This document shows positions 1,421 to 23,934 of a DNA stretch of 37,959 nt, piece after piece; position 1 is the first letter of the stretch; every line of letters starts with the position of its first letter. The translations under genes were made by a program, and so were the position numbers. The stretch is from a virus. The DNA is taken from IMG/VR virus record IMGVR_UViG_3300045999_004574, positions 1 to 37,959 of that record, one strand, 5' to 3'. The notes beneath the pieces are model-generated. The model did not search any database. It was not told the origin of the DNA and saw only the letters and a program-made list of their open reading frames with translations.

Positions 1421-1455
1421 GCTGTAATTATACAGCATTTGTGAATATTCGTCAA
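1419..1455 (-). promoter_or_regulatory. uvsE promoter with palindrome over the -10
   Basis: On the minus strand, TTGACG (1450-1455), a 17-bp spacer and TATAAT (1427-1432) form a near-consensus sigma70 promoter. A palindrome with 8-bp arms, ATGCTGTA and TACAGCAT around a 4-bp centre (1419-1438), covers the -10 and the start codon. It contains CTG-N8-CAG. The betaproteobacterial and E. coli LexA box is CTG-N10-CAG, so this resembles an SOS operator but is 2 bp too short. The -35 overlaps the stop codon of the amidinotransferase gene. Confidence 0.7.
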
Positions 1456-2369
1456 CCGCGTTCTAAATCCAATGTTACACAATGGAAACCTCCGCCCAGT
1501 GTGCGACTATGACGTAGTTCCATGGGGATAACTTCAAATTGGTAAGCACGAAGTGTTCGGATCAATTCGGTTTGGTGCCGATCACAAATCACAGTGTTGG
1601 GATCTACCACCAACAGGTTCATTGCTATCCATTTTGATGCGTATGGATACTGGTAAAAATCCTGTGCTACCACGTCATTGATCCAAATCTTGTGCCATCC
1701 ATCAAACACCTGGGGTACATTATCAAAATTCACGCGACTGGAATTCAACATCACCAAGCCTTCTCGCAATGGTACAATAGTTGAATCAATATGCACACCA
1801 GCATAAAAATTACATAATTCAATTTTGACGCCGGGAAACACACTACACAACCATTCATAGGCTTTGCGATTGCCCGAAGCTGATTCCAAAAACAGCATTT
1901 TATCTCCCAGTCGACAAACATTGGCTGCATCCAAAATCATACCTTCGTGTCTGGGCATGAAATGGTAATTCTCTGCTTCGTCCACGATGTCATGGTAACA
2001 TTGTAGTTCCATGTCTCTGCAGGGATACATCATGGCAGGGTTCACAATGGTAGAACCGTACACCAGGAGTCTGTCACGTGGACAATAGTTGTACATACCG
2101 TCGTGAACTTGAAAGTTGAGTGGATCTGGGCGTACAACTTCTACGCCCAAACTCATCAGTGTGGTTGCTAGACTATCTAGGTCTTGGTTGGTTTCATCAA
2201 TAATCTTTTGGGGCACTGGTCCACGTGGAACAGGTGTTTCTCGCCAAGTAGTCTTTTCACCTTCTCGAGAGAACACAGGGTCGTTTACAGGCCAATTGGC
2301 ATCAGTAGCCGAGCCTACTACTATGCGTTTTAATGGACTCCACTCGTTGTAACTATTGATCATACCCAT
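1452..2369 (-). CDS. Arginine:amine amidinotransferase (AGAT/StrB-like)
   Basis: The product is a 305-residue protein of the amidinotransferase fold. Family members move the amidino group from L-arginine to an amine such as glycine or an inosamine phosphate, giving ornithine and a guanidino product. The N-terminal NSYNEWSPLKRIVVGSA motif, CPRD (96-99), DAAN (Asp147), HID (His193) and GGGFHC (Cys297) are in family order. Asp147, His193 and Cys297 match the AGAT catalytic triad. The acceptor cannot be predicted. The start overlaps the oxygenase gene by 10 nt (an internal ATG two codons on would reduce this). It sits between a 2OG oxygenase and a UV endonuclease, in line with UDP-sugar dehydrogenase, which suggests a small-molecule or glycan-modifying pathway. 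Confidence 0.85.
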   Translation of the reverse strand: MGMINSYNEWSPLKRIVVGSATDANWPVNDPVFSREGEKTTWRETPVPRGPVPQKIIDETNQDLDSLATTLMSLGVEVVRPDPLNFQVHDGMYNYCPRDRLLVYGSTIVNPAMMYPCRDMELQCYHDIVDEAENYHFMPRHEGMILDAANVCRLGDKMLFLESASGNRKAYEWLCSVFPGVKIELCNFYAGVHIDSTIVPLREGLVMLNSSRVNFDNVPQVFDGWHKIWINDVVAQDFYQYPYASKWIAMNLLVVDPNTVICDRHQTELIRTLRAYQFEVIPMELRHSRTLGGGFHCVTLDLERG

Positions 2370-2878
2370 CCTGTAATTTGTAGTGTATACCTTGGTTCTA
2401 CACCAAGATTAGCAGCCATGTGTGGCATATCATACTGCCACTCGACTACGTCACCCGCTTGCCAATTCACCTTTGGCAGATTATTGTATTCAGCATAGTG
2501 ACCGGGTTTCCAGTTTTCCAAAAATATCACAGCTCTGCGTATGCGATGTTCTTGGCCTTGCAATCGAAATATCTGTATGTAACGCAGATACAAATCTTGA
2601 TGAGTTGGAAGAACAGTTCCGGTGTTCATTCTGTAGTAACTGGTACCAATGTTTTTCCAGCCCATCTCTGTGTAAATATCAAGAAAACGTTGATTCCAAC
2701 TGGGCTGAGGACTGCGCATATCGCACATGTCACCGGTGAATTTTTCTGAGTAACCTTGACTCAGCCAACGTTGGATGTTGGCAACATCATTAAACTGCTC
2801 GTGTTTGTAATCGAGATCTTTGTACTCGTTGTTCCAGAATTTTGGAATGTTATATTTGAGTATTTCTTGTGTTTCCAT
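2360..2878 (-). CDS. Fe(II)/2-oxoglutarate-dependent oxygenase-like protein
   Basis: The 172-residue protein has the double-stranded beta-helix signature of 2OG oxygenases: His93-x-Asp95 in LPTHQD, a distal His153 in MPHMAANLG, and Arg163 in PRYTLQITG as the likely 2OG carboxylate ligand. It resembles the compact aspartyl/prolyl hydroxylase-type enzymes common in phage genomes. The substrate is unknown. The gene overlaps the dehydrogenase upstream by 29 nt and the amidinotransferase downstream by 10 nt, so all three are probably translated from one mRNA. Confidence 0.75.
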   Translation of the reverse strand: METQEILKYNIPKFWNNEYKDLDYKHEQFNDVANIQRWLSQGYSEKFTGDMCDMRSPQPSWNQRFLDIYTEMGWKNIGTSYYRMNTGTVLPTHQDLYLRYIQIFRLQGQEHRIRRAVIFLENWKPGHYAEYNNLPKVNWQAGDVVEWQYDMPHMAANLGVEPRYTLQITGWV

Positions 2879-4094
2879 AGTGTATTATTGTAAGCCCATC
2901 AATAGATGGAAGTTTGCGCCAAGGGTCAACAATGACTGAAGAACGAGGTATAGCGCAGTACGGCATGGTAGCAGTTTGCCCTTCAATATAGCTGTAAGTG
3001 ATCTGACGATCATGGGCCCACAGTATCACTGATGGTTGTTGTAACTCTGCAATCACGTCGATTTGATTGTCTGCTAGTGGATCAAGGTATTTGACATCCA
3101 GGCCAGCCTGTTTGACGTAGTGTCCAATCAAGGTAGAGTAAGACCCAATACAATAAGGCACATCGGGCTTGTAGGCTTTGCCGTGTATGACCACCTCCAT
3201 GTTGTGCTGTGATGCCTGCGCCACCAAGAAGTCAGCAAGATTTCTAGCTTGTATTTCTCTGGCATGCATCACTGTGTCAAACAAGTCGTAACCAAGGTTG
3301 TATTCTTTGGCCAACCAACGCAGAGCAATGTTGTCACGTGGATGGCAAGCACCAGCATCACCCATGCCTGCGGTCATGTACTTGGATCCCATGATGCGCA
3401 TGGTGCTGCGAGCCAGGGCATCTGTGACAACGTCAACATTGATATTGCCAATACGCATTGCAAAGTCTTGAATCATGTTCACAAGTCCAATTTTTGCTGA
3501 GATGAATGTGTTGTAGAAAATCTTGATGGCTTCGCACTCGTCCCAGGTGCCAATTTCATAACGCGGATTGTTCTGCATTACTGTGTCATACAATTCACGC
3601 AGTTCGCCAGCCAGGGCCGTGGGGTTTCCATCTTCGGTGCCAATCATGATCATTTCAGGATTGACCATGTCCCACTTCACAGAACCCATGGCAATTAGAT
3701 AAGGATTGTATAAAAATTGGTGCTGTCTAGCCAGTCTAGGTACAAACTCGCGACGTGTTGTGCCCGGTAATACTGTGGAGATTAACACAACTTTTTTGGA
3801 CTCCCGGGCGTGTAGATTGATTTTGTTGATGGCATCAATCACAGCTTCGTATCCAAAGTCCCGGGGTTCCAAATGACTACTTGGCTCAGCACCATCATAT
3901 CCTTCGGCATGCGGGGTTGGCACAGCAACAAAGATCCACTCACTTTGGTTTATTAACTCATCAATATCACAAATTTTGATCAAGTTGCTAGAGCGCGGGT
4001 AAATATCGTAACCTCTGACTTCATGCTTTTCTGCCATGACTTCAGCACAATCAAGACCCAGTTTGCCAATTCCAATAAAACCAATTTTTTTCAT
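2850..4094 (-). CDS. UDP-glucose/GDP-mannose dehydrogenase family protein
   Basis: The 414-residue protein would oxidise a nucleotide sugar to its uronic acid with NAD. The N-terminal Rossmann motif is GFIGIGKLG (5-13). A central helical part with KIFYNTFISAKIG (191-203) matches the dimerisation/active-site helix, and Cys250 in GACHPRDN is the predicted catalytic thiol in place of the usual GSCFPKD. The C-terminal GKAYKPD (305-311) is the family's third domain. The start codon abuts that of the divergent glycosyltransferase-like gene with no base between them. Which sugar is used cannot be said. Confidence 0.85.
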   Translation of the reverse strand: MKKIGFIGIGKLGLDCAEVMAEKHEVRGYDIYPRSSNLIKICDIDELINQSEWIFVAVPTPHAEGYDGAEPSSHLEPRDFGYEAVIDAINKINLHARESKKVVLISTVLPGTTRREFVPRLARQHQFLYNPYLIAMGSVKWDMVNPEMIMIGTEDGNPTALAGELRELYDTVMQNNPRYEIGTWDECEAIKIFYNTFISAKIGLVNMIQDFAMRIGNINVDVVTDALARSTMRIMGSKYMTAGMGDAGACHPRDNIALRWLAKEYNLGYDLFDTVMHAREIQARNLADFLVAQASQHNMEVVIHGKAYKPDVPYCIGSYSTLIGHYVKQAGLDVKYLDPLADNQIDVIAELQQPSVILWAHDRQITYSYIEGQTATMPYCAIPRSSVIVDPWRKLPSIDGLTIIHYGNTRNTQI

Positions 4095-5411
4095 ATGAGT
4101 GTGCCTTTAGACAGATTGTACAATTTTCTTTTTGACATTGCAAATCGCGATGACCTACTAATTTATCGGTTTTTCCCGCATGGATCAAGAAATCTAGATG
4201 ATCTCAAAGATCCGTTTCCACTGCGGCCCGAGCAATCTTGGTTCGAAGTTATGACCATGCCATGCATGATATTTCATGATCAAGAACCCTTGATGTATTA
4301 CTTGTATAACAAAAATGATTTTAAAAATTGTGTAGAAAAGAATAGAGACCCTCTCTGGCCCAAGGCACTGATAGATGTTGTATCAAACCTGCATTTGCGA
4401 GCATGTGTACGTGCCACAACAAATGCTTATGATCAAACGTTATTGTGTCATTCTGAGAAAAACAGCCGGGATCTTGAACTTTATCAACAGCATGGATTTA
4501 TTGGAGTATACTACTGGTGTCACGCTTTGTTGGCTAGAGATTGGTATAGGTATGCTAGAGTAGACCCAACGTTAGCAGTAAATTTTGAAAATATTACTCA
4601 TGACTTTTTGATTTACAATCGTGCCTGGAGCGGCACTAGAGAGTATCGTTTGGCTTTGGTAGAAATGCTAGCCAATAATGATTTAATATCTTGTTGTCGA
4701 ACAACATTCTCTGCGATTGACAACCAGGTGCAGTATACCCAACACAAATTTACCAATCCTGATCTTGCTATCTCTCGTGATGACTTGCATGAACTGTATC
4801 CGGCCAACACACATGCTGCCAGTGCCAGTGCTGACTACTGCGTTGAAGACTATGCTACTACGGCCGTTGAAGTTGTGCTTGAAACATTATTTGATGATCA
4901 GCGGCAACATTTGACTGAAAAAGTGTTACGTCCAATTGCCTGCGGTCGTCCATTTATGCTGGCAGCCACCCCAGGTAGTTTACAGTATTTAAAACAATAT
5001 GGATTTGAGACTTTTGATGGATTGATTGACGAAACATATGATACTATAGAGGATCCTCAACAACGACTCAAAGCAATAGTTCAAGAAATCAAAAGAATCA
5101 CTTCCCTGAACAATAGTCAAAAAAAATTGTTATGGGTTGAACTGTACAAAATCTCCGAACGCAACAAACAATTGTTTTTTAGTGATGAATGGCACCAGCA
5201 AATTGTGAAAGAATTCAAAGATAATTTTGATTTGGCTGCAAGCCAACTAACTGTGTCGGGGAAATATCAAGATGCCCTAGATCAAATAGCATTGAGTAAT
5301 GATCCTGAGATGTTGCGTTGGAGAGACCATAAACGTCCCGGAATGCCAACATCAACAGATCGTGAAAGACTTGCACGTTGGATACAACAACATCAGTCTC
5401 AGAGATCATAG
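4095..5411 (+). CDS. Glycosyltransferase-like protein
   Basis: The product is 438 residues from the ATG at 4095. I rejected an upstream in-frame ATG because it lies inside the opposite gene. The N-terminal half contains MIFHDQEPL. The C-terminal half has LTEKVLRPIACGRPF, then a GSLQYLKQYGFETF stretch and IDETYD, a pattern typical of the nucleotide-sugar-binding end of fucosyltransferase-like and phage glycosyltransferases. No SD is visible. Its position back-to-back with the UDP-sugar dehydrogenase supports a sugar-transfer role, but donor and acceptor are unknown. This family call is by pattern only. Confidence 0.6.
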   Translation: MSVPLDRLYNFLFDIANRDDLLIYRFFPHGSRNLDDLKDPFPLRPEQSWFEVMTMPCMIFHDQEPLMYYLYNKNDFKNCVEKNRDPLWPKALIDVVSNLHLRACVRATTNAYDQTLLCHSEKNSRDLELYQQHGFIGVYYWCHALLARDWYRYARVDPTLAVNFENITHDFLIYNRAWSGTREYRLALVEMLANNDLISCCRTTFSAIDNQVQYTQHKFTNPDLAISRDDLHELYPANTHAASASADYCVEDYATTAVEVVLETLFDDQRQHLTEKVLRPIACGRPFMLAATPGSLQYLKQYGFETFDGLIDETYDTIEDPQQRLKAIVQEIKRITSLNNSQKKLLWVELYKISERNKQLFFSDEWHQQIVKEFKDNFDLAASQLTVSGKYQDALDQIALSNDPEMLRWRDHKRPGMPTSTDRERLARWIQQHQSQRS

Positions 5412-6954: not shown

Positions 6955-7413
6955 TTAGGAAGCGTAGGTGATAGCAATAGTTTTAGGCTTGGCTTCCTCA
7001 GGTACTTCACGTTTTAAGTGAATGCTGAGAATACCCAGTTCAAGGTGTGCATTGCTGATTTCCACATGATCCGCAAGTTGAAATTCTCTGCGGAAGCTTC
7101 TTTCGCTAATGCCCTTGTGCAGGTATTTTGCAGTGGCATCTTCATTGTCAACTGATTCACGACTGTGCCTGCCTTCAATGACCAATAGATTTTTGTCCTT
7201 GGTCACTGTGAGGTTGTCGTGCGCAAAACCAGCCACAGCCAAGCTGATCATGTACTCGTCGTCTGCAACTTGTACAATGTCGTAGGGTGGATAGTTTGAG
7301 CTGGATTGTTGAGCACTCACACGCATGAGCTCATCAAATACGTTATCAAAGCCGATACCAAATTTGGTGAGTGCAGGAAGGTCGAAAGAACGAAGGGTTA
7401 GAGTTTTTGTCAT
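6955..7413 (-). CDS. hsp20: Small heat-shock protein (Hsp20/IbpA type)
   Basis: The 152-residue chaperone has an alpha-crystallin domain from about YPPYDI (42) to LSIHLKREVPEE (129-140), including the hallmark YLHKGISERSFRREF stretch and the HLELGILSI signature near its end. A C-terminal IAI (I-x-I) motif for oligomer contacts is present. Such proteins hold unfolding proteins without ATP and are frequent in T4-like environmental phages. An AAAGGAG site sits 7 nt before the ATG. A TAAATA box and a strong hairpin precede it. Confidence 0.95.
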   Translation of the reverse strand: MTKTLTLRSFDLPALTKFGIGFDNVFDELMRVSAQQSSSNYPPYDIVQVADDEYMISLAVAGFAHDNLTVTKDKNLLVIEGRHSRESVDNEDATAKYLHKGISERSFRREFQLADHVEISNAHLELGILSIHLKREVPEEAKPKTIAITYAS

Positions 7414-7761: not shown

Positions 7762-7985
7762 CAGTAAAGTTTTTTGGGCAACTGTTGATCTGCTAGTTTT
7801 TTACGCCAACGATTTCGAGCAGCTGATGCTTTGAGCTTGCGACGAGTCGTGGGTTTGACATAAAACTCGCGATCACGAACATCATTCAAGATTCCAGAAT
7901 CTTGAATTTTCTTTTTGAACTTGCGCAGAGCTTTTTCTACTTGTCCATCTTGCACCAGTACTGATCTACCCCTGAGTTTTTGCAT
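7761..7985 (-). CDS. rpsU: Ribosomal protein bS21, phage-encoded
   Basis: The 74-residue basic protein has the bS21 pattern: EKALRKFKKKIQDSGIL (17-33), RDREFYVKPTTRRK (37-50), then a basic AARNRWRKKL tail. bS21 sits on the 30S subunit next to the anti-SD region of 16S rRNA and helps initiation. Phage copies are thought to bias ribosomes towards phage messages. The gene overlaps the 3' end of clpX by 20 nt and the next gene by 1 nt, so all are likely on one transcript. Confidence 0.92.
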   Translation of the reverse strand: MQKLRGRSVLVQDGQVEKALRKFKKKIQDSGILNDVRDREFYVKPTTRRKLKASAARNRWRKKLADQQLPKKLY

Positions 7986-9180
7986 TTGCTTCCTTGAGTT
8001 CTCTAGGGGTATTTACCTGATCAGCATCGATGATCACCCGGTCTATGCCTTGCCGGCGATACTGTGCCAAATAGAACATGTGCGGAAGCAACACACGTTC
8101 CAGTTCACTGTGCAAACCTCTAGCACCAGTTTTGTTCAAAATAGTGCGATCAGCAATTAATTCCAATGCTTCGGGCGAAAATTCTAATTCAACTCGATCC
8201 TGACCAAACAACCATGAATACTGCTGAATATAACTGTGTTTGACATCCAGCAAAATGCGGATAAGATCCTCTTTGCCCAGTTCCCTCAGAGCTACCCAAC
8301 CAGGAAAGCGTCCAATAAACTCCGGGATCATTCCAAACTTGATCAAGTCATCTGGTGTGACTTGATCCAAACTGGTGTTGACATCAGGATTCACCTTGGC
8401 ACCAAATCCAATACTGGTACCGCGCACTCGATTTTTGACTACAGCATCAAGACCAACAAATGCCCCGCCAGCAATAAACAAAATGTTGGTGGTGTCAATT
8501 TCAATCATTTCTCCTGAAGGATGCTTGCGATTACCAGTGGGAGTGACTCTACATTTGGTACCTTCTACCAATTTAAGTAGAGCCTGCTGTACACCCTCGC
8601 CTGAAACGTCGCGTGTGATACTGGCACTTTCACTGCGTCGGCTGATCTTGTCAATCTCGTCAATGAACACAATGCCACGTTGAGTCTTGGCCACATCACC
8701 ATTGGCCGCTGCAAACAGTCGAGATATCAAACTTTCTACATCATCGCCCACATACCCTGCTTCGGTTAAACTGGTAGCATCTGCAATAACAAATGGCACG
8801 TCAAGATAGCGTGCCACGCTGCGAGCCAGCAATGTTTTTCCTGATCCAGTGGGCCCAAACATCAAAATATTGCATTTTTCAATTTCTACATTGGGATCAG
8901 GATTGGCAATGCGTTTGTAGTGATTCACCACTGCCACACTCAACATTTGCTTGGCACGATCTTGCCCAATAACATACTGGTCAAGATGTTCTTTAATTGC
9001 CTGCGGATCAAGTTCAACTGGGTCTGTTGTCTTAACAATGCTTTCATCTGTGAGCAATGTTTCGCAAAGTTCCACACACTCATTACAAATTGCCACACGT
9101 TCGCCCACAATGAGTTTGGCAACTGCATCCTTGTGTTTACCACAAAAACTACATGTGTCAATGGTGTCATTTGATTTCAT
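7966..9180 (-). CDS. clpX: ClpX-like AAA+ unfoldase
   Basis: The product is 404 residues, near the usual 420. The N-terminal zinc-binding domain has Cys10, Cys13, Cys32 and Cys35. The AAA+ core has Walker A GPTGSGKT (109-116), the pore loop GYVG (142-145), Walker B VFIDEID (171-177), the RKH loop (218-220) and sensor II in GARG (352-355). The ClpP-docking IGF tripeptide is intact at 257-259, so it could form a ClpXP-like protease with host ClpP. No clpP is in the window. It overlaps the membrane-protein gene upstream by 14 nt and rpsU downstream by 20 nt. Confidence 0.96.
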
Positions 9181-21686: not shown

Positions 21687-22762
21687 TCTAGTTGGTCGCT
21701 CATGATCCCAATCACATAATTTGTACTCTCGGTTTCCTGTAACGCGGCCTGTTTCTTGCTGGTATCCACATGCTTGGTAAACCAAGGGATGGGTGTTGAG
21801 CGCGGATAGCTTGCAGTATATTTGATGCCAATTTCTTTGAGAGCATTGAATGCTGTGAAATCAACAAAGTCTTTGAGAATTTGCGCATTGAGACCAATCA
21901 CAGGGCCCTTCTGGAACAAGTAATCAGCCCAGGCCTTTTCTTCTCGTATGACATCCAGGTACATTTGATAAACTTCAGCTTCACATTCTGCCTTGGCTGC
22001 TGCAAATCGCGGATCTTCTTTGACAACCTGATTAATCAACCAGCCAGTCCACTCTTTGTGGAGCATTTCATCTTGTAGTATCAAGCTGATGATATTGCCA
22101 TTGCCAATAAAGATCTTGTTCTCTACCATGGCCAAGCTGGTGGCAAAGCTGACCATGAAACGGAAAGCTTCTAGTGCATAACTTGCGTTCAGTGCCAACC
22201 AAATTGCTCGGATGTGCTCACGCTCAGGGAACTGTTCCAGCAGTTCTTTGCGACAATTGATCATGTGTAAACGATCATAGTAGTTGCCCACACTTGAAGC
22301 CATGTCTACAATTTCTTTAGTGTCATGAATGGTGTTGAACACATCCTTGGGCACGTTGTAGATGTTGCGAATGATGTGACTGTAACTTCTTGAGTGAATG
22401 TTGGTTTCAAAGAATGTCCAGTTGTAGACCAAGGCTTCTAGTTCTGGAAGACTTACAACTGGAGTAAAGATTTGGCTTGGGCCACGACCTTGTAAACTGT
22501 CTAGTGCTGTTTGGCGTAACAGATTGCTTGTGAAGATATGCTTGACTGTGTCACTGGCATCTTTGAAATCTTGTGCGTCTTTGGTGAGACTGATTTCTTC
22601 AGGCACCCAGAAAAAGCCACGTGCTTCTTGCTCGTACTTGACTAGCTTGTTGTATTTGACTTCTTCAAATCGTTGAACTGTAACTGGGCCTGCAGGGTCC
22701 AAGAACATCTTGCGATTGAGGTAGTCTGTTTTAGTTGTTAAATTATATTGTTCTTTGCTCAT
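21662..22762 (-). CDS. nrdB: Ribonucleotide reductase class I, beta subunit
   Basis: The 366-residue radical-generating subunit has metal ligands in order: Asp88 (ALDSLQGRG), Glu119 and His123 (FFETNIHSRSY), Glu198 (ASYALEAFRF) and Glu232-x2-His235 (DEMLHKEW). Tyr127 of HSRSY is the radical tyrosine position, so a class Ia type is likely. The spacing Glu119-x3-His123 is one residue longer than the E-x2-H of E. coli NrdB. The start overlaps the flavoprotein stop as ATGA. Confidence 0.95.
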   Translation of the reverse strand: MSKEQYNLTTKTDYLNRKMFLDPAGPVTVQRFEEVKYNKLVKYEQEARGFFWVPEEISLTKDAQDFKDASDTVKHIFTSNLLRQTALDSLQGRGPSQIFTPVVSLPELEALVYNWTFFETNIHSRSYSHIIRNIYNVPKDVFNTIHDTKEIVDMASSVGNYYDRLHMINCRKELLEQFPEREHIRAIWLALNASYALEAFRFMVSFATSLAMVENKIFIGNGNIISLILQDEMLHKEWTGWLINQVVKEDPRFAAAKAECEAEVYQMYLDVIREEKAWADYLFQKGPVIGLNAQILKDFVDFTAFNALKEIGIKYTASYPRSTPIPWFTKHVDTSKKQAALQETESTNYVIGIMSDQLDYDNLPDL

Positions 22763-23934
22763 ATTTTTTCCTTGACAAGGTCTACTACTATTTTAGCAGT
22801 GGCCGGGCTCAATGTCCAACCTAAATGGCCATGACCAGTGTGATAAAACACATTTGGTCGTTTCTTACTCTGTTGTACAATTGGCATCATGTTTGGTGTC
22901 ATAGGACGCAAACATGCCCACTGTGTGTAATCGTGTGTGTTGATATTGGGAAAGTTAGTGTGTACCCACTTCAACAACGGCTCAATACGGTCACGACGTA
23001 TATCATAGTTTTCACCAGTTAACTCAGCAGTACCGGCCACACGAAAACGATTTCCCAAACTTGAAGTAACAATCTTTGCTTGATCATCTAACAAACTTAC
23101 TGTAGGCAAGTGTGCAGGATCAACATTGTTGATAGTGATGCTATATCCTTTGACCGGGTATACAGGAAGACTATCACCAACTGTTTTTGCCAGTGCTGTG
23201 CTACCTACACCATTGGCAATGACCACAGCATCATAAAAAGAAACTTCTTCAATATGCCTAATTTGCCAATCGTAATAGAATGTAACATTGTATTTGGTCG
23301 CAAGTACGTTTGCAAGCTGGTAACAGAACTTGTGGACGTCACCAGTCCAGTCGCTAGCAGTAATGGTTGCGCCAACAATGCCTTTGATGTTTTTAAGTGC
23401 AGGATCAACCTCACCAACATAAGCAGGGTTAACTTCTTCACGTGGCAGGCCATTTTTGTTGTACAATTCTGTTACTGTTTGCGCATTTGCCCAGTAATCT
23501 TGATCCTTGTAAAAATGCAAGATGCCACAGTCACTACGGTCAAAATTAATTTTTTCTTGTTTGCAAATTTCGTTGTACAGTTCTTGACTTTGCAGTCCCA
23601 TTTTTACTGTGTTTGCTGTGTTCTTTTGATACACACCACGAGCTGTGTAGTACAAAAACTTGGCCATCCACTTCCACTGTGCCCAATCTAGTCTAGGACG
23701 AATCAGTAGTGGAGCATCCTTTTTGAACATCCACTTGAAGCCTTTTTTAACATTGCTCCAACTGGTCCATACTTCGCTATTGCTGACTGATATCTGACCA
23801 CCGTTGGCGAAACTGGTCCGCATGGCAGGATAACGTTCGGCTTCATATACCGATACCTGATAACCTGCTTTTATCAAATAATAGGCAGTGGTCAGGCCAG
23901 CGATGCCTGCGCCAATTACCGCAACTTTTTTCAT
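22759..23934 (-). CDS. FAD-dependent amino-acid dehydrogenase (DadA-like)
   Basis: The 391-residue protein has an N-terminal FAD-binding VIGAGIAGLTTAYYL motif (6-20), SFANGGQIS (41-49), a YPVKGYSI segment and C-terminal RPMTPNMMPIV with TGHGHLGWTLSP. These match D-amino-acid dehydrogenase (DadA). DadA deaminates D-amino acids and passes electrons to quinones. Here it lies between nrdA and nrdB, overlapping each by 4 nt (ATGA), so it is translated with them. Why a reductase operon should hold this enzyme is unclear: it could be metabolic, or supply electrons or ammonia. The family call is firm, the substrate not. Confidence 0.85.
   Translation of the reverse strand: MKKVAVIGAGIAGLTTAYYLIKAGYQVSVYEAERYPAMRTSFANGGQISVSNSEVWTSWSNVKKGFKWMFKKDAPLLIRPRLDWAQWKWMAKFLYYTARGVYQKNTANTVKMGLQSQELYNEICKQEKINFDRSDCGILHFYKDQDYWANAQTVTELYNKNGLPREEVNPAYVGEVDPALKNIKGIVGATITASDWTGDVHKFCYQLANVLATKYNVTFYYDWQIRHIEEVSFYDAVVIANGVGSTALAKTVGDSLPVYPVKGYSITINNVDPAHLPTVSLLDDQAKIVTSSLGNRFRVAGTAELTGENYDIRRDRIEPLLKWVHTNFPNINTHDYTQWACLRPMTPNMMPIVQQSKKRPNVFYHTGHGHLGWTLSPATAKIVVDLVKEKI

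Follow-up and report, generated by a model that had tools for sequence, protein, structure and literature searches.

The 37,959-base virus record IMGVR_UViG_3300045999_004574, hereafter the window (the whole stretch of DNA that was analysed), carries a cassette of four genes that we name AT, OX, UGD and GT. Three of them follow one another on the minus strand, each overlapping its neighbour: AT (1452..2369, 305 aa) encodes a pentein-fold, StrB1-like L-arginine amidinotransferase, OX (2360..2878, 172 aa) encodes a small 2-oxoglutarate (2OG)-Fe(II) oxygenase with a prolyl-4-hydroxylase-like double-stranded beta-helix, and UGD (2850..4094, 414 aa) encodes a member of the UDP-glucose/GDP-mannose dehydrogenase family in which the catalytic Glu is replaced by Tyr132. 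The fourth gene, GT (4023..5411, plus strand), is an open reading frame (ORF) of 462 aa that encodes a divergent glycosyltransferase with a GT-B fold. The overlap is 10 nt between AT and OX, 29 nt between OX and UGD and 72 nt, in antisense orientation, between the ORFs of UGD and GT; this arrangement of all four ORFs agrees, coordinates included, with the three overlapping genes and back-to-back fourth described in a first-pass annotation of the same DNA. The true start of GT is probably Met25 at position 4095, abutting the start of UGD, since residues 1-24 are unstructured in the structure model (predicted local distance difference test, pLDDT, < 50) and synonymous change in them is low (pS of 0.10 vs 0.47 for the remainder of GT; 11 and 15 pairs, respectively), 47 of 49 aligned rows have Met at position 25, and the hexamer CATATG at 4092..4097 joins the UGD start codon on the minus strand to the probable GT start codon on the plus strand. 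Residues 1-24 of the ORF thus seem to be no more than a shadow cast by the start of UGD.

When AT was compared with solved structures by phmmer, StrB1 (1bwd) ranked first (E of 4e-63), followed by HsvA, AGAT and SxtG; AT also matches phrog_25854 (2e-25), and searches of Pfam and NCBIfam gave nothing at cut-off for AT, OX or GT. The catalytic triad Asp147/His193/Cys297, as required of pentein L-arginine amidinotransferases (AGAT/StrB1/HsvA/SxtG) and as already proposed in the first-pass annotation, is present, with His193 and Cys297 invariant in 49 aligned rows and position 147 occupied by Asp in 43 rows and by Glu in 6. The residues that would bind the arginine donor, mapped by eye from the alignments, form a complete and likewise invariant set (D99, D195, R212 and S245), which we take to be the counterparts of D170, D305, R322 and S355 in AGAT. 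StrB1, the L-arginine:inosamine-phosphate amidinotransferase of the streptomycin pathway, is therefore the nearest solved relative by sequence and has the triad and the arginine-binding residues in common with AT; however, StrB1 has 348 aa whereas the phage protein has 305 aa and is linked to OX, UGD and GT, and the StrB1 acceptor (scyllo-inosamine-4-phosphate) is, by sequence likeness only, a candidate for AT. At the positions of human AGAT Asn300 and Met302, a site tied to glycine specificity (PMC3684758), AT has A190 (A, S or T across the rows) and V192 (V in 48 of 49 rows) instead, and glycine is therefore not expected to be its acceptor.

Searches of PDB profiles with OX and with GT were empty, and with nothing from Pfam or NCBIfam either, structure models were needed for both proteins. 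The AlphaFold2 (AF2) model of OX (pLDDT 91.4) shows a double-stranded beta-helix whose fold matches include 3dkq (Z 14.3) and the Pseudomonas putida prolyl-4-hydroxylase (P4H; Z 13.6), with a Foldseek match to P4H at 1.5e-6; the H93xD95...H153 iron triad and the 2OG-binding R163 are invariant in 64 rows. The AF2 model of GT (pLDDT 89.8) aligns over about 240-290 residues with many GT-B enzymes (Z 9-12.8) and contains the two Rossmann domains of that fold. T4 beta-glucosyltransferase (BGT) ranked first (Z 12.8 over 290 residues, 9% identity), followed by POGLUT1, FucT and other GT-B enzymes, and Foldseek alone returned nothing at E < 1e-3 for the GT model. Sequence searches with GT (Pfam, PHROG, PDB profiles) gave no match, and GT was not found in any named phage. 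Its invariant residues are D86-Q87-E88, E287 and E299-K300, and the protein is acidic, with a pI of 5.6 in the window and 5.3-6.8 over the family.

UGD matches its family in both Pfam (PF00984/PF03721) and PHROG (phrog_9148, 4e-87), and it has the GxGxxG motif of the Rossmann domain and the Cys/Lys/Asn/Asp set of UDP-glucose 6-dehydrogenases, with C250, K191, N195, D254 and T107 kept in 48 rows. The catalytic Glu of human UGDH (E161) serves thioester hydrolysis; at its position all 48 rows have Tyr132, and the same Tyr is found in Synechococcus phage Bellamy and Pelagibacter phage HTVC008M. Judged by its residues, the window protein is thus a UGD-like variant and not a canonical UGD, and because the catalytic Glu is an invariant Tyr we file it as UGD-like, with its product uncertain. 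The first-pass annotation had given it a sugar-oxidising role and suggested that the cassette could make a guanidino- or uronic-acid-decorated group; the dehydrogenase family was right, but with the catalytic Glu missing it is not certain that a uronic acid is formed.

Purifying selection acts on each of the four genes, with a median ratio of nonsynonymous to synonymous change (dN/dS) of 0.07 for AT, 0.10 for OX, 0.07 for UGD and 0.21 for GT. Among 80 related viral loci, which were fetched as the closest AT relatives so that the figure describes the lineage, AT is accompanied within 6 kb by both OX and UGD in all 80 and by GT in 74. The linkage of the four genes is thus strong, and the four enzyme classes named in the first-pass annotation are right, as the families, folds and catalytic residues show. 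When AT1-like loci were collapsed at 97% nucleotide identity into 80 clusters, UGD, OX and AT were consecutive and in that order in 79 (two of which have an extra GT between OX and AT), the exception being a locus (L012) with OX ~600 nt away; 69 also have the divergent GT. The low dN/dS values together with this fixed co-occurrence indicate that the arrangement is not due to chance. As an anchor external to the cassette, we used the metallophosphoesterase gene, of which 52 loci extend for at least 5.5 kb towards the cassette. UGD, OX and AT were all present in 44 of these, and at least 7 of the other 8 reach the end of the fetched flank before a full cassette could fit, with several such contigs carrying the cassette according to other loci. 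A true exception is a close relative (L372) that keeps UGD and in which a cytidylyltransferase-like gene (PF01467, L372:2752-3240) replaces OX and AT; a fatty-acid-desaturase-like gene (L372:5262-5969) lies in the same neighbourhood. The cassette is thus tightly conserved, and it is carried by large freshwater phages; a megablast search of 12 kb against named phages gave no match. In another relative, GT and UGD are separated by an inserted ORF (L026:5605-6273) that has NUMOD3 motifs and probably encodes a homing endonuclease.

Beyond this lineage the cassette resolves into two separable modules, OX-AT and UGD-GT, which mix in other phages, mostly beside sugar-chemistry genes. The two pairings recur separately: within 6 kb of AT in 80 loci of the type found in Synechococcus phage S-SCSM2R, we found OX in 68, a short DegT gene in 74, a NolO-type carbamoyltransferase gene in 27 and UGD in 11, and within 6 kb of UGD in 80 Bellamy-type loci we found GT in 50, AT in 25, OX in 17 and a radical-SAM gene in 39. 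The first-pass annotation would have been contradicted by independent variation of the four genes among relatives; AT, OX and UGD do not vary in this way within the lineage, but they do so in L372 and, as modules, among phages more widely. In the S-SCSM2R genome (PQ898602) a 2OG oxygenase gene (27% identity) lies next to a gene for a StrB1-like amidinotransferase (36%); the two overlap and have the same order as in the window, and this pair sits in a run of glycosyltransferase genes (one annotated as family 2, one as family 25) with a short DegT and a radical-SAM gene; however, UGD lies elsewhere in that genome and no window-type GT was detected beside the pair. Kyanoviridae UGDs (Bellamy, HTVC008M) are 46-54% identical to the window UGD and have both the Glu-to-Tyr change and the motif CHPRDN in common with it, but their partners are NadE-like, NolO-like carbamoyltransferase and methyltransferase genes, whereas the window UGD is partnered by OX and AT. 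More generally, UGD relatives sit in clusters of nucleotidyltransferase, epimerase, glycosyltransferase, carbamoyltransferase and methyltransferase genes. Campylobacter phages CP220 and CPt10 have amidinotransferases in radical-SAM clusters (PMC2853527), with an amidinotransferase and nucleotide-diphospho-sugar transferases in one gene run; these amidinotransferases are 22-25% identical to AT, though, the runs have many radical-SAM genes, and UGD is not annotated in them. The gene before the CP220 amidinotransferase (gp085) was tried as a counterpart of OX and rejected, as it gave no alignment with the OX metal-binding motif. A contig filed as a Chloroflexi metagenome-assembled genome (PAAV01000010.1), which reads like a phage, has a 2OG-FeII_Oxy_3 gene followed directly by an amidinotransferase gene, and its neighbourhood includes DegT-like, carbamoyltransferase-like and halogenase-like ORFs.

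In all, 212 stretches of the viral collection encode an AT relative; among environmental phages the trait is thus widespread. For bacterial AT loci (34-38% identity), no UGD-OX-AT cluster was seen in the ORF listings examined. An AT match in the record of Enterococcus phage Efs 1-1-1 (OR846605) was set aside; its neighbour ORFs read like mutS2 and alkaline phosphatase, and that stretch is therefore probably host DNA.

We propose that the cassette is a phage sugar-decoration module that combines sugar oxidation, guanidinylation, hydroxylation and transfer, with a glycan as the favoured target, and give this reading about an even chance of being correct. UGD would oxidise a nucleotide sugar, presumably UDP-glucose-like, at C6 and so yield a uronic acid or a related C6-oxidised product. 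With an amidino group taken from host arginine, AT would convert a primary amine, possibly that of an amino sugar or of an aminocyclitol, into a guanidino group; the amine may be supplied by DegT-family aminotransferases encoded elsewhere in large relatives. OX would hydroxylate the guanidino-bearing unit or the acceptor, and the GT-B enzyme would pass the finished sugar to an acceptor, for which a glycan of the phage or of the host surface seems likelier than DNA. A glycan is favoured by the neighbour genes in several phage groups, by the gene swap in L372 and, weakly, by the acidic pI of GT.

Several points weigh against this proposal. The Glu-to-Tyr change in UGD could block thioester hydrolysis, several relatives lack GT at this position, and the fold match closest to GT is a DNA-modifying enzyme. 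The cassette itself has no aminotransferase, and among the large relatives (16 cassette-bearing contigs of 103-364 kb, which may be incomplete) DegT genes were found in 10 and not in the other 6, which are probably fragments. A 7-deazaguanine-type locus of the large relatives also includes DegT, OX-like, AT-like and GT-like genes. Finally, the substrates, the order of the steps, the product and the target are all ones that we infer. A more specific version, in which a guanidinylated, C6-oxidised sugar produced by the cassette is installed on the phage's own DNA or virion, and in which the oxidised C6, with the hydrolytic Glu missing, may leave as an aldehyde or be captured by an amine and not end up as a simple uronic acid, we put forward as a tentative possibility.

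The alternative that survives best, although we judge it unlikely, is DNA hypermodification, in which the cassette would put an oxidised or guanidinylated sugar on phage DNA, for example on a 7-deazaguanine base, with GT acting like T4 BGT. A DNA target is kept in play by the BGT-like fold and by the 7-deazaguanine-type locus, which was found in cassette phages (L318-L322). This locus has FolE, QueD, QueE-like and Vut_1 (transporter) genes; a short DegT gene lies near them, as do epimerase-like, GT-like and OX-like (L320:6695-7234) genes and, in G002 (L319:6670-7686), a third amidinotransferase gene, and 8 of the 16 large contigs have an ORF that resembles DpdA or tRNA/DNA-guanine transglycosylases (TGT); the 544-aa example at L322:143-1777 was recognised by its DSGGFQ motif alone and has relatives in Pseudomonas PA5oct-like phages (35%). 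On the other hand, the cassette lies outside the 7-deazaguanine locus, Pfam, PHROG and PDB gave no match for the 544-aa ORF, and a search for TGT/DpdA with PF01702 found none in 22 genomes, with controls positive. T4 BGT and the window GT have the GT-B fold in common, but such folds are common, the two proteins are 9% identical with no PDB profile match, GT is acidic, and no hydroxymethylcytosine (hmC) pathway was detected in cassette relatives. The family of dCMP hydroxymethylase and thymidylate synthase (PF00303) has no member in any of the 16 contigs of up to 364 kb, compared with 9 of 14 control genomes; there is therefore no T4-type hmC handle in these contigs, and glucosylation of hmC as in T4 is unlikely as the acceptor pathway. 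Matches to Tet_JBP (PF12851) were found in none of the 16 contigs, with no control genome positive either.

A role in host metabolism or as an effector, in which AT uses up arginine or produces a guanidino metabolite and the four genes are neighbours rather than one pathway, appears still less probable; the full arginine-binding set in AT and the recombination of modules, with UGD standing without OX-AT in L372, would suit it, but the uninterrupted order of UGD, OX and AT in nearly all clusters, their overlapping frames in the window and the recurrence of the OX-AT and UGD-GT pairings in other phage groups argue for a joint function. Least probable, in our judgement, is protein decoration, in which OX would hydroxylate a residue in some protein of the virion or of the host, GT would glycosylate that hydroxyl and AT and UGD would tailor the sugar, as might be suggested by the nearness of the OX fold to prolyl-4-hydroxylase-type enzymes including that of P. 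putida, by the POGLUT1 protein O-glucosyltransferases ranking second among GT fold matches and by a fibre-like ORF (by eye; no PHROG hit) within about 1 kb after AT in four divergent relatives (L054, L069, L073 and L075), but across phages OX accompanies AT rather than GT, similar 2OG enzymes act on small molecules too, and the acceptor protein is only hypothetical.

If the sugar-decoration proposal is correct, phages make guanidino sugars, and the cassette offers a defined gene set for studying how phage DNA, virions or host-surface glycans are shielded. To our knowledge, guanidino sugars are otherwise known from aminoglycoside biosynthesis, and we know of no charged guanidino-sugar decoration in any phage. 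In literature on phage amidinotransferases, on cyanophage carbamoyltransferase/glycosyltransferase clusters and on jumbo-phage radical-SAM/glycosyltransferase clusters, of which our coverage was incomplete, the four-gene set and its function were not found. Within that coverage the complete set appears to be undescribed, and parts of it are already recorded in phage annotations and papers: the view of the first-pass annotation that no phage pathway with this set has been described stands for the full set and its function, but not for the OX-AT pair annotated in S-SCSM2R or the amidinotransferases in the CP220/CPt10 clusters. The OX-AT and UGD-GT modules may also serve as handles for locating related clusters.

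The large relatives encode further genes of similar kinds. Each of the 16 contigs has between 1 and 15 matches to the GT profile, and five loci (L149, L150, L152, L154 and L156, on contigs G003, G001, G002, G005 and G006, respectively) hold another cluster, in which a distinct amidinotransferase (AT2) is accompanied by GT relatives and SPASM/radical-SAM genes; one or more of these clusters also have DegT, epimerase and NolO-type carbamoyltransferase genes, and that in L149 has tryptophan-halogenase-like and AMP-ligase genes. In one cassette phage, a 398-aa amidinotransferase-like ORF (L065:9944-11140) that is 52% identical to AT3 and 24% identical to AT1 adjoins uvdE. Beside the cassette, L065:2569-4822 and L087:9507-11790 contain ORFs that by eye resemble a porin of Gram-negative bacteria and a phosphate-binding protein of the PstS type.

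In the window itself, a gene for a UvdE-type UV-damage endonuclease (PF03851) occupies 368-1438; it adjoins AT in many relatives, and in others the distance between the two reaches about 3 kb. On the other side, genes for ClpS (PF02617; 6585-6896) and for a ClpX-like ATPase with a zinc finger (7966-9180), with an Hsp20-like ORF (by eye; 6955-7413) between them, form a host-like proteostasis set that adjoins the cassette in most relatives. Further along, a 391-aa ORF (22759-23934) lies between the genes for the large and small subunits of ribonucleotide reductase; its residues 1-32 alone resemble the large subunit, and it is possibly a fragment or an insertion.

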